A stretch of DNA of 21,394 nt from a virus: the IMG/VR virus record IMGVR_UViG_3300047299_000164, positions 1-21,394 of that record. The stretch is one strand, 5' to 3'. The notes under the pieces were generated by a model. It worked only from the letters and a program-made list of their open reading frames with translations. It ran no database searches and had not been told where the DNA came from. Below, one piece after another: positions 1,604 to 13,080 of the stretch. Position 1 is the first letter of the stretch. Each line of letters starts with the position of its first letter. The position numbers and the translations under genes are program-made.

Positions 1604-2053
1604 CTATTGGTAGCAGCGGTACACGTTCTTCCAACAGAAGGGAATCACTGTGTATGCCAGTGCTTCGAGACCTTCGAGAAAGAGTAGAGAAAACTCACGG
1701 CTGAGTTCAACCAAGCCCCGCGCCCCTCTTCCCAGTGTTGTGGTTACCAACCGTTGCGGTGATACCTGCCCATTGCAGTATTGAGTTATAACCTGCTCTC
1801 CGTGGTCGAGTTTTTGTTGCCACCAATCCCATCCCTGTACTGTGAGTAGTACTGCACAGATGGATGCCGTGTAGACCAATGCAGCGGTTACTAGGGAGTA
1901 CTCCACTGTCCTTTGAATCAACATCTTTCGGTTGTTACAGGTCCAGATAGCTGCCCACTTATAGCCGTAGAAGCACATCACCGAGGTCCGAGCCGCTGCC
2001 CTTACCAAGTACTTCGTGATGTCATTCATTTGTTGTACTGCTGTAGTGTTCAT
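1604..2053 (-). CDS. Membrane protein, unknown function
   Basis: I choose ATG 2053 over the upstream ATG 2065. GGAG lies 6 nt before ATG 2053, and this start overlaps the previous stop as ATGA. The product is 149 aa. A clear membrane segment spans residues 52-73 (YSLVTAALVYTASICAVLLTV), and a weaker hydrophobic stretch lies near residues 122-142 (LLFLEGLEALAYTVIPFCW). The N-terminal region is basic and has several cysteines and tryptophans. No family recognised. It sits in the leftward accessory operon beside other membrane or exported products, so envelope remodelling, exclusion or lysis are possible roles. Confidence 0.65.
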   Translation of the reverse strand: MNTTAVQQMNDITKYLVRAAARTSVMCFYGYKWAAIWTCNNRKMLIQRTVEYSLVTAALVYTASICAVLLTVQGWDWWQQKLDHGEQVITQYCNGQVSPQRLVTTTLGRGARGLVELSREFSLLFLEGLEALAYTVIPFCWKNVYRCYQ

Positions 2054-2238
2054 CGGTTGCTCCATTGTGTGTGTTGTAGTAATGAGTTCATTGCTGCTTT
2101 GAGGTCTGCCTGTACCTGTGCTGTTTCAGCCATTGCAAGGTCATAAACTAGAGCGGTTTCTAACTGTTCCTTGTTCATTCGACTGTAGCCAGGGATTTTA
2201 ACTTCTTTAGCCAGTTGCTTCAGTTCACTAATAGTCAT
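2050..2238 (-). CDS. Small Rho_N/SAP-like domain protein
   Basis: The 62-aa product begins MTISELKQLAKEVKIPGYS, followed by RMNKEQLETAL. This matches the short helix-turn-helix pattern of the Rho N-terminal (SAP/LEM-like) domain, which binds nucleic acid in Rho and in many small phage proteins. The rest is an Ala- and Gln-rich helix. AGGA lies just before ATG 2238. It is the first gene of the leftward operon, directly next to the structured non-coding region, so a role in nucleic-acid binding or antitermination is attractive but unproven. Confidence 0.7.
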   Translation of the reverse strand: MTISELKQLAKEVKIPGYSRMNKEQLETALVYDLAMAETAQVQADLKAAMNSLLQHTQWSNR

Positions 2239-2269
2239 TGTCCTGTACCTTAAATGTGTCGTTGTTATC

Positions 2270-2700
2270 GTTGGTGATTCCTACCACAGAACCAACCTAC
2301 AGCCTAGAGTGAGTGGTAGTTCACTCCAGGGTGTAAGTGGCCGATACTTATCTGGGATGGCCATTCCCGATTGCTTTATTAAGGGAGAGCAACCAAAACC
2401 TACCAGGTGTTACGTGTGGTTCACGGCATCTTTTACGAGATTGCTTCAACGTGTGGTCGAAACCACAGCCAACCTTTGACTACCACATCAAAGGCTGGGT
2501 GTGATTGAGAGTTCCGCTTAATCACGTTAAGTAAGGTCACTCACAACTCAATACGCCTCAGTCTTTCTCTGAGGAATGTAAAGTTTAACTCTGCCCCGAA
2601 CGACTTTACCCACAGTCCTAACTAATAACAGACCGCTTGTGCTCTACGTTTCGGGTGATTGTCCCAGCTTCAGGGTGTTGCTGCTCGTCTACTCCGAGCT
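2270..2700. ncRNA. Candidate large structured RNA with kissing hairpin loops
   Basis: Perfect or near-perfect stems follow one another. They are 2270-2275/2291-2296, 2303-2312/2321-2330 (one mismatch), 2338-2342/2359-2363, 2371-2375/2388-2392, 2452-2457/2462-2467 (4-nt loop), 2473-2478/2489-2494, 2500-2507/2519-2526, 2556-2561/2569-2574, 2578-2584/2603-2609 and 2683-2687/2695-2699. The loop of the first (CTACCAC, 2281-2287) is fully complementary to the loop of the second (GTGGTAG, 2313-2319). The sense strand is unclear: G-U extensions favour + for some stems and - for others. No tRNA, tmRNA or known riboswitch was recognised. Folding was done by eye only. Confidence 0.4.
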
Positions 2701-2705
2701 GTGTA

Positions 2706-2752
2706 TTCGATGCATTCAATCTATCTCGTCCTTCCTTCTCTGTCAACTCAAC
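2706..2752. repeat. Two-part direct repeat, unit 1
   Basis: The unit is the 18-mer TTCGATGCATTCAATCTA, an 18-bp unrelated spacer, then GTCAACTCAAC. The same arrangement recurs 108 bp to the right. The conserved boxes with a fixed, diverged spacer suggest paired protein contact sites rather than a simple duplication. Confidence 0.75.
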
Positions 2753-2813
2753 GGCTACCACACCGTATTTATTTAGATTGGAAGGTCATCTCTGCTTGGC
2801 TCGTTCACCTCGC

Positions 2814-2860
2814 TTCGATGCATTCAATCTAACCCAACCGACCGAACTCGTCAACTCAAC
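2814..2860. repeat. Two-part direct repeat, unit 2
   Basis: This unit has the identical 18-mer at 2814-2831 and the identical 11-mer at 2850-2860, with the same 18-bp gap as unit 1 but different gap sequence. A third partial inverted match (TAGATTG, 2774-2780) lies between the two units. Confidence 0.75.
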
Positions 2861-2908
2861 AAACGCAAAGCTCTAGATAACAATAGATATAGGCGAACGC
2901 AAACAGGA

Positions 2909-2960
2909 GCAAGTAGCGGTCGCAAGTAATCGGTAAGCAGTAGCAAGCAGTAGAAAGTAG
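2909..2960. repeat. Phased short-repeat array (GCAAGTAG-like)
   Basis: Five degenerate octamers of the form G(C/T/A)AAG(T/C)A(G/A) begin at 2909, 2922, 2933, 2943 and 2953. They are spaced 13, 11, 10 and 10 bp apart, close to one helical turn. The array abuts the 30-bp element at 2958-2987, so it may be an upstream binding site for a regulator or an iteron-like origin element. Confidence 0.5.
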
Positions 2961-2987
2961 GTTGAGGGTCTTCCGAAAAATTTTATG
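2958..2987. promoter_or_regulatory. 30-bp repeated element, copy 2 (candidate phage promoter)
   Basis: It differs from the copy at 1003-1032 only at element positions 13, 14 and 20. It lies outside any gene, upstream of the leftward operon, next to the phased repeat array. If it is a leftward promoter, the structured region 2270-2700 would be its 5' leader. If rightward, it would lead into the late genes. Confidence 0.45.
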
Positions 2988-3039
2988 GGGGGAAGGGGGA
3001 GTGGTGTGTACTATATAAAACCTCTAAAAATTTTTACTT

Positions 3040-3785: not shown

Positions 3786-4364
3786 ATGCAGCCAGCAGAA
3801 ATCCGAAATGTCCTTCCTCCCTGTGTGGAGTTGAAGGTACCTTATTTTTCACAACTGGACAACCGCAACAACCCTACTGGTTCCTGTAACGTCACGTCCA
3901 TTGCAATGGTCCTGTCGTTCTTTGGTATTAAGGGCAATGGTCAGGGACAACTTGAAGACCAGCTCTATAAGCGTATGCTTGCAGCGGGTCTAAGTCGTCA
4001 CAGCCCTTACGACCTTGCAGCCATCGTAAACCGTGATTACGGGAAGTTCGGAATCACGGATGTCTTCAAAGATAATGCAACCCATCAGGAGCTTAAAAAG
4101 CATCTGGCAGGGGGCAACCCAGCAGTCGTACACGGCTACTTTACAGACTTCGGTCATATCGTAGTAATTACCGGGTATGACAACAATGCCTATGGGGGGC
4201 GCGGTGCTTACATTGTTAATGACCCTTACGGTGAGTACTACGAAGATGGTTATGACACCCGTGCCTCAGGCAAGGGCCTCCGGTATAGCTACCGATTGAT
4301 GGAGGACCGCGCAGGAAAAGACGGAGACTTTTGGGTCCATTTTATTTCGAAAACAAAAGTGTAG
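3786..4364 (+). CDS. C39-like cysteine peptidase, candidate endolysin
   Basis: The 192-aa protein has the papain-like peptidase C39 (C39_2) pattern. The opening is VPYFSQLDNRNNPTGSC, with the likely nucleophile Cys34. GHIVVITGYD carries the likely catalytic His124, and YIVNDPYG carries Asp146. The closing strand is WVHFIS. No signal peptide or membrane segment is seen. In phages such domains serve as peptidoglycan-peptide-cutting endolysins, or sometimes as virion-associated hydrolases. It is the first gene of the rightward late cluster, away from the candidate holin/spanin genes at 11890-12415. Endolysin is the most likely role; processing of a phage protein is the alternative. AAGG lies before the ATG. 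Confidence 0.75.
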   Translation: MQPAEIRNVLPPCVELKVPYFSQLDNRNNPTGSCNVTSIAMVLSFFGIKGNGQGQLEDQLYKRMLAAGLSRHSPYDLAAIVNRDYGKFGITDVFKDNATHQELKKHLAGGNPAVVHGYFTDFGHIVVITGYDNNAYGGRGAYIVNDPYGEYYEDGYDTRASGKGLRYSYRLMEDRAGKDGDFWVHFISKTKV

Positions 4365-10027: not shown

Positions 10028-10759
10028 ATGTCACAAGCACAAATTGTAGACGATGGTGGTGTACTGCACACCAGTAATGCACAGTTACTTGGTATCAGTC
10101 ACCCAGCAGAAGAAGGGGCCTCGGTGGGAGCTCAACCCCCGGTAACCCAGGAATTGCAGTTATCCACTAATGGACAACAACAACAACAACAAAACCCCAA
10201 CAATGTAACACAACCGGAACAACAACTGCAGCTGACTCCTGAGCAAATGGCTCAAATGATGCAGCAACAACCACAGCAGATTGACTTCTCGAAGCTCGAT
10301 GACAACGGTAAAGCTTGGTGGAACCAATTCCAACAGTACACCGGATTCTCGCCTGAGCAGGTGATGAGCTTACCCCAACAGATTCAGCAGCTACAAAGTT
10401 TTGTTCATGCCCAACAACGGGAACAACAAGCACAGACACTACGGGCTGAATGGGGTAATGACTTCGACACAGTTATGCCACAAATCGCAGAACGTTTTCG
10501 GTCCCTCCCCCCACAGATGCAAGCTGCCCTAGATAACATTGACGGTGCTCGTTTGCTATATTCCCAAATTATGTCTGAGCGGCAGGCTCGGGTTCCAGGT
10601 GCACAACCACCACGATTCGACCGACCTACAACCCCGGCCCCCTCACGCAGCCAAGAGCCACAGTTTACAAAAGACCAGATTCGTAACATGAGCGACGCTG
10701 ATTATCAGAAAAATCAACAGCAGATTATGTACGCATATGCTAACGGCCTGGTACGGTAG
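10028..10759 (+). CDS. Capsid scaffolding protein
   Basis: This 243-aa protein sits exactly between portal and major capsid genes, the scaffold position in T7-like phages. It is acidic and very rich in Gln, Asn and Pro. A CAA run (10179-10192) encodes a Gln tract in the N-terminal third. The middle is helical (LTPEQMAQMMQQQPQQIDF), and the C-terminus is a helical, mixed-charge tail (FTKDQIRNMSDADYQK) of the kind scaffolds use to dock on the capsid shell. It starts 1 nt after the portal stop. Call based on position and composition. Confidence 0.75.
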   Translation: MSQAQIVDDGGVLHTSNAQLLGISHPAEEGASVGAQPPVTQELQLSTNGQQQQQQNPNNVTQPEQQLQLTPEQMAQMMQQQPQQIDFSKLDDNGKAWWNQFQQYTGFSPEQVMSLPQQIQQLQSFVHAQQREQQAQTLRAEWGNDFDTVMPQIAERFRSLPPQMQAALDNIDGARLLYSQIMSERQARVPGAQPPRFDRPTTPAPSRSQEPQFTKDQIRNMSDADYQKNQQQIMYAYANGLVR

Positions 10760-12415: not shown

Positions 12416-13080
12416 TGGCACAATCGACTACCACACTACTTAAAGCAGCTAACGAAGTCCTCCTCGATATCGGTGAGCGTCCAATACTGAACTTCGGTGG
12501 GAACCTCGGGCTAAAACTCAAGTCGGCAATGACATCAGCAGTTTATGACGTTGGCTTACTCGATGATTGGAGTTGGTTACAGGACAGGAGAAATGCAGAT
12601 GCTTGGGCAGGAAACACGGCAATTCTTAATAATCGCCGACGACTCTACAAAGTCCAGTACCGACCAGAGGCAGGCAGTCCTTACCTGGACGTCAAATATA
12701 TCACCCCGGCTGACTTTGATAGACAAACACACCTTGCTTATAACACCATTGGGACCTACCCACTCTACTACACAACTGGACCAGAACTCTCAGTATTCCT
12801 GAATCCTTATCCAACCACAGAAGATGAGCGGGTGAAACTTTGGTTTACGGCAGTGGATACCGTAGTACCCCCCACCAACAACACTGACACATTCCCAGTT
12901 CCTGAAAGGTTCGTACAACTCATCAAGAAACGAGCACTATACTACATGTCCCTTCGGCACCTTGACGATATACAAGCAGCTTCGATGTTCAACAACGAGT
13001 ATGAAATCATGGCACAACGCCTTCGTGATACTGAACGCTCGCACACGGTTGGGATACTCAATATGTACCGGAGGCGTTGA
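12415..13080 (+). CDS. Tail tubular protein A (gp11-like adaptor)
   Basis: The 221-aa protein matches T7 gp11 in length and position. Gp11 forms the ring joining portal and nozzle. Family-like features include the helical N-terminus LLKAANEVLLDIGERPI, the segment VYDVGLLDDWSWLQDR, and the C-terminal helix FVQLIKKRALYYMSLRHLDDIQAASMFNNEY. The protein ends in LNMYRRR. It overlaps the preceding peptide by one base, and its last codons carry GGAGG, which serves as ribosome site for the next gene. Confidence 0.82.
   Translation: MAQSTTTLLKAANEVLLDIGERPILNFGGNLGLKLKSAMTSAVYDVGLLDDWSWLQDRRNADAWAGNTAILNNRRRLYKVQYRPEAGSPYLDVKYITPADFDRQTHLAYNTIGTYPLYYTTGPELSVFLNPYPTTEDERVKLWFTAVDTVVPPTNNTDTFPVPERFVQLIKKRALYYMSLRHLDDIQAASMFNNEYEIMAQRLRDTERSHTVGILNMYRRR

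Follow-up and report, generated by a model that had tools for sequence, protein, structure and literature searches.

Same-loop hairpins and a conserved leader element before the putative early operon of a Saffermanviridae-like phage fragment

Introduction

In a 21,394-nt stretch of viral DNA (IMG/VR record IMGVR_UViG_3300047299_000164; called here the window), two neighbouring hairpins at the head of a leftward operon display loops that match one another base for base. This raises the question of whether the loops touch, and in which molecule, or whether the match has some other origin. The original prediction regarded the pair as a kissing-loop candidate, belonging to a folded RNA or to a DNA cruciform-type element, and as unlikely to arise by chance. 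A well-known case of hairpins with fully complementary loops of about 7 nt is that of ColE1 RNA I and RNA II. The likeness to the window lies in these loops. The ColE1 partners, however, are an antisense RNA and its target, whereas here a single leader has both loops, on the same strand. To our knowledge, little is known of the control of early transcription in freshwater cyanophages of the family concerned. If the reading proposed below is true, the twin promoters, the covarying element and the same-loop hairpins described here would together make a testable RNA switch or stabiliser of the early operon.

Results and Discussion

The window and its relatives

The window derives from a Saffermanviridae-like podovirus of freshwater cyanobacteria and covers part of its genome. 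The best matches of its terminase (~38% identity) are those of A-4L, TR020, LPP-2 and PP, and its capsid protein matches the same group at ~40% identity; measured against the Saffermanviridae group (A-4L, Pf-WMP3, LPP-2 and TR020), the two proteins are about 38–42% identical. Its assignment as Saffermanviridae-like follows from terminase, portal and capsid homology together with gene order, the late genes being arranged as in A-4L. These late genes occupy the plus strand and begin with a C39-type peptidase at 3786, which is followed by terminase, portal, scaffold and capsid, then by tail tubular proteins A and B and an internal protein with peptidase domains. The minus strand holds small early genes, which are read leftward from 2238 to 298. 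The two operons are separated by a gap of ~1.5 kb with no convincing gene, and the hairpin region, which lies between them, corresponds to the genome-end region of the Saffermanviridae.

No close DNA relatives were found among annotated phages. In IMG/VR the nearest relatives found were L008 and L009, whose capsid proteins are 87–88% identical to that of the window; nothing nearer was present in the viral and genome contigs scanned, and no capsid relatives were found in bacterial and archaeal genomes. The first early gene of the window (2050–2238, minus strand) encodes 62 amino acids; in L008 and L009 the related sequence is the N-terminus of the first long early protein. In those two phages this protein is a single chain (1042–1680 in L008 and 972–1616 in L009), and the window appears to have it split into two overlapping genes (1604–2238).

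Predicted twin promoters and a probably folded leader

Two sigma70-type promoters are predicted upstream of the early genes, at which both are aimed. P1 (2718–2746, minus strand) reads TTGACA-17-TAGATT and its sequence continues GAATGCATCGAA; P2 (2826–2854, minus strand) reads TTGACG-17-TAGATT. They lie in the two copies of a 47-nt direct repeat (2706–2752 and 2814–2860, minus strand), both of which carry TTGAC(A/G)-17-TAGATTGAATGCATCGAA. Related promoters are present in L008 and L009, and L008 holds two exact copies of TTGACA-17-TAGATTGAAT. By eye, a similar CATCGA also follows the likely −10 box of A-4L and Pf-WMP3. Both the twin promoters and the orientation of the early genes agree with a minus-strand transcript. 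From a 5′ end at 2711, inferred from the position of P1, to the first early gene, this transcript would have an untranslated leader of ~470 nt (2239–2711, minus strand).

The region also appears folded. The predicted minus-strand fold of positions 2240–2800 (561 nt) has a z-score of −2.95 and was equalled by none of 100 shuffled sequences, and the fold of the plus strand is weaker (z −1.31). Read in the sense direction, the leader of L009 (z −4.37) and that of A-4L (z −2.15) likewise look folded, and that of L008 folds no more than expected (z 0.06). The proposal of a folded RNA at the start of the leftward operon is therefore well supported by the location between promoter and gene, by the minus-strand z-score and by the G-U pairs described below.

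Phage HK022 opens its early operons with a structured transcript, the put RNA, a cis-acting antitermination leader that acts on E. coli RNA polymerase (PMC9378689). Put would be a functional analogue of the leader by position only.

A covarying element near the 5′ end of the leader

One part of the leader, at 2577–2691 (minus strand), is common to the window, L008 (2041–2143) and L009 (1907–2014), and has the motifs ACCCTGAA....GG.CAA, AGCACAA and GGTAAAG in all three phages. Within it a stem between 2647–2655 and 2595–2602 covaries, with four of eight pairs changed on both sides. Across the three sequences 95.5% of its cells are paired, compared with 20–47% when the two sides are slid against each other. 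The pairs were counted on a trimmed segment of the element because a MAFFT alignment of the whole misplaced its 3′ part. The comparison, which spans three sequences in all, supports a conserved structured RNA as the probable head of these early transcripts. The element is absent from Rfam and distinct from the hairpins reported originally, and is possibly the better RNA finding of the two.

Four hairpins with one loop

The letters of the two hairpins reported originally were confirmed: GTTGGT (2270–2275) faces ACCAAC (2291–2296) around CTACCAC (2281–2287), and the second hairpin (2303–2330) has GTGGTAG (2313–2319) in its loop, so that all seven loop bases are exactly complementary, as claimed. 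Two further hairpins with the same loop, H3 (2469–2498) and H4 (2751–2766), had been missed. The loop heptamer GTGGTAG/CTACCAC thus caps four hairpins that lie within 500 bp of DNA; in H1 it is inverted and in the other three it has the same orientation. Their stem sequences are unrelated apart from a few bases; H1 and H3 have in common the TGA/TCA bases that close the loop and a CCNG base. At 12434 and 15384, the two other places in the window where GTGGTAG occurs, no stem accompanies it.

On the minus strand, H1 (2303–2330) is a 10-bp hairpin, CCTGGAGTGA-ACTACCAC-TCACTCTAGG, whose loop (2313–2320) is the inverted copy of the shared one. It has a predicted energy of −14.7 kcal/mol and, in the predicted leader ensemble, a pairing probability of ~1.0 with a fully unpaired loop. 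H3 (2469–2498, minus strand) is an 11-bp hairpin, CCAGCCTTTGA-TGTGGTAG-TCAAAGGTTGG, with its loop at 2480–2487, an energy of −17.1 kcal/mol and a pairing probability of ~1.0 in the same ensemble. H4 (2751–2766, minus strand) is short, ACGG-TGTGGTAG-CCGT, and lies just upstream of the −35 box of P1; by the predicted promoter positions it would be transcribed from P2 only. H2 (2270–2296, minus strand) is weak; its core is TGGTTC-TGTGGTAG-GAATCA (2275–2294) and its loop occupies 2281–2288. Alone it is worth −5.4 to −6.5 kcal/mol, and in the fold of the full leader its pairing probability is ~0.01 because its bases favour another local pairing. The two hairpins of the original prediction have thus fared differently, H1 being firm and H2 marginal.

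Two other roles for these hairpins were considered and rejected. A terminator scan flagged H3 as an intrinsic terminator, but its tail, CTGTGGTTTC, is not a U-run. Small frames of 27 and 35 amino acids overlap H1, H2 and H3; they have no clear ribosome site and are unlike the short ORFs that come first in L008 and L009.

RNA hairpins or sites in DNA

H1, H2 and H3 each have a single pair that is not Watson-Crick; on the minus strand it is G-U in all three, and on the plus strand A-C. These pairs favour an RNA made from the minus strand over DNA or the plus strand, as judged from sequence, although three of three falling on one strand is just a 1-in-8 event. The motif TGTGGTAG might nevertheless act in DNA, as repeated binding sites (operator or origin iterons, perhaps cruciforms) near the early promoters and the genome end, in which case orientation would be irrelevant and loop complementarity a by-product. 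The presence of the motif in both orientations would agree with this, as would the location of H4 outside the P1 transcript and just upstream of the P1 −35 box, the correspondence of the region to a genome end, and the tandem iterons with small palindromes found upstream of late genes in phage CHP58. A double-stranded site, however, needs no unrelated, self-complementary flanks of 6–11 bp; the wobble pairs point to RNA and no spacing pattern was seen among the four copies. We consider sites in DNA unlikely.

How often chance produces such hairpins

Dinucleotide shuffles of the window were scored for adjacent hairpins lying within 60 nt, with stems of at least 5 and loops matching over 7 nt. 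A pair of the reported type occurred nine times in 150 shuffled windows, both strands included (~6% per window), and a pair with stems of at least 6 within 300 nt occurred in 94 of 1,271 shuffles. A match like the reported one is thus expected in about 6–7% of shuffled windows, and that pair alone, being only mildly out of the ordinary, is not strong evidence; should the arrangement prove to be ordinary, it would show how weak a pairwise loop match is when taken by itself. The claim that chance is unlikely does hold for the cluster. Four same-loop hairpins within 600 nt were obtained in none of 2,200 shuffles, and three in 12 of them. Of 1,271 shuffles, one contained a pair as strong as H1–H3 (stems of at least 8, matching loops no more than 300 nt apart); 403 kb of DNA from other phages, for the most part related cyanophages, contained none. 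The real sequences that reached or neared the size of the cluster were mostly tandem or low-complexity repeats, such as the iterons of CHP58. The hairpins were already known when these tests were devised, which makes the chance figures somewhat optimistic.

We conclude that the four-hairpin set is real and unusual and that the reported pair is its weaker half. That the loops match by accident in a hairpin-rich stretch is improbable: the frequency of the reported pair in shuffles, a first reading that scanned for anything unusual and the lack of conservation in relatives all speak for accident, but the four-hairpin set and the H1–H3 pair are far rarer than the pair first noticed.

A feature of one genome so far

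Conservation speaks against the original prediction by its own standard, since the stems and the complementarity of the loops are both missing from L008 and L009. Their leaders contain no GTGGTAG hairpins and no hairpin pairs with at least six complementary loop bases, and the stretch corresponding to the hairpin region holds one or two small ORFs. What they do keep are the promoters and the different, covarying leader element. With the hairpins missing there, loop covariation does not support kissing, which failed the single comparative test at hand. The exact H3 stem-loop was not found in bacterial and archaeal genomes, and other pattern matches (L029, L030 and L045–L053) came without the remainder of the element and were put down to chance. 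The hairpin set is so far a feature of a single genome.

Such a distribution would also be expected if the hairpins were copies of a small palindrome that spread within the leader by replication slippage or template switching, their loops having no function. Besides the absence of hairpins from L008 and L009, the loop-closing TGA/TCA and the CCNG base common to H1 and H3 fit a shared origin of this kind. Drift alone, however, is insufficient to explain stems that have diverged almost fully and yet remain paired around an identical 7-nt core, which leaves the spread of a palindrome rather doubtful.

Known RNA families

The original prediction could name no known RNA family, and the searches bear this out. 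Rfam 15 covariance models gave no match at the gathering score over the whole window, and a permissive search of 2200–3000 gave one weak and irrelevant snoRNA match only. Kissing loops, some of them between molecules, are used by the phage-encoded structured RNAs GOLLD and ROOL, large non-coding families that have Rfam models and often lie near tRNA islands (PMC12286853). By these family models the window element belongs to neither. It differs from them in being a predicted mRNA leader of ~470 nt without an Rfam match, and no tRNA or tmRNA gene was found in the window.

Possible contact between the loops

H1 and H3 together provide what a kissing interaction requires, namely two stable hairpins with unpaired loops, complementary over 7 nt, in one predicted transcript. 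H2 lacks the stability, although the energy of a 7-bp loop duplex (~−9 kcal/mol) could favour its formation if it docks on H1. The linker between H1 and H2 is 6–8 nt long, which is probably short for an intramolecular kissing helix of 7 bp, and H1 and H3 are 138 nt apart; contact between H1 and H3, or between H1 and H2 of different transcripts, is therefore easier to picture. The neighbouring pair originally put forward is, for these reasons and because the H3 stem is far stronger than that of H2, not the best candidate. By inspection the complementarity ends at the loop edges, and its confinement to the loops argues against a long alternative duplex. Inverting one copy of a shared motif, it should be said, yields complementary loops automatically and pairing need not follow.

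Our preferred reading, held tentatively and somewhat short of probable, is a structured early-leader RNA with loop–loop contact between H1 and H3 (or H1 and H2). Within one minus-strand RNA molecule, the H1 loop (ACUACCAC) would pair with that of H3 (UGUGGUAG); alternatively, H2 may compete for the H1 loop, or the pairing may join two transcripts. Such pairing would hold the leader's 3′ half in a compact fold that lies ~30 nt upstream of the first early gene's start codon, and the likeliest effect, at a guess, would be on the stability of the early message or on ribosome access. Transcription, loop pairing and its effect are what we infer; the promoter-like sequences, the hairpins and the complementarity are read directly from the DNA. 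A more elaborate arrangement, in which the inverted hairpin serves the others as a common partner and the leader RNA switches kissing partners or dimerises, seems to us quite improbable.

Other repeats and motifs

On the minus strand at ~2985–3016, a TTCCCCCC run is similar to the left ends of the A-4L, Pf-WMP3 and TR020 genomes, and the contig may run through a terminal-repeat junction here. Ahead of the late genes in phage CHP58 (L037), at ~10205–10350, are ~19-bp tandem repeats of GTATAACTGGGGCATACAA that are iteron-like. The window has a 30-bp repeat at 1003–1032 and 2958–2987; its two copies are 90% identical, and on the minus strand it reads AAATTT...GGAGAACCCTCAACC. Motifs that appear similar by eye precede early genes in L008 and L009, and the repeat is a possible ribosome-site or regulatory motif.
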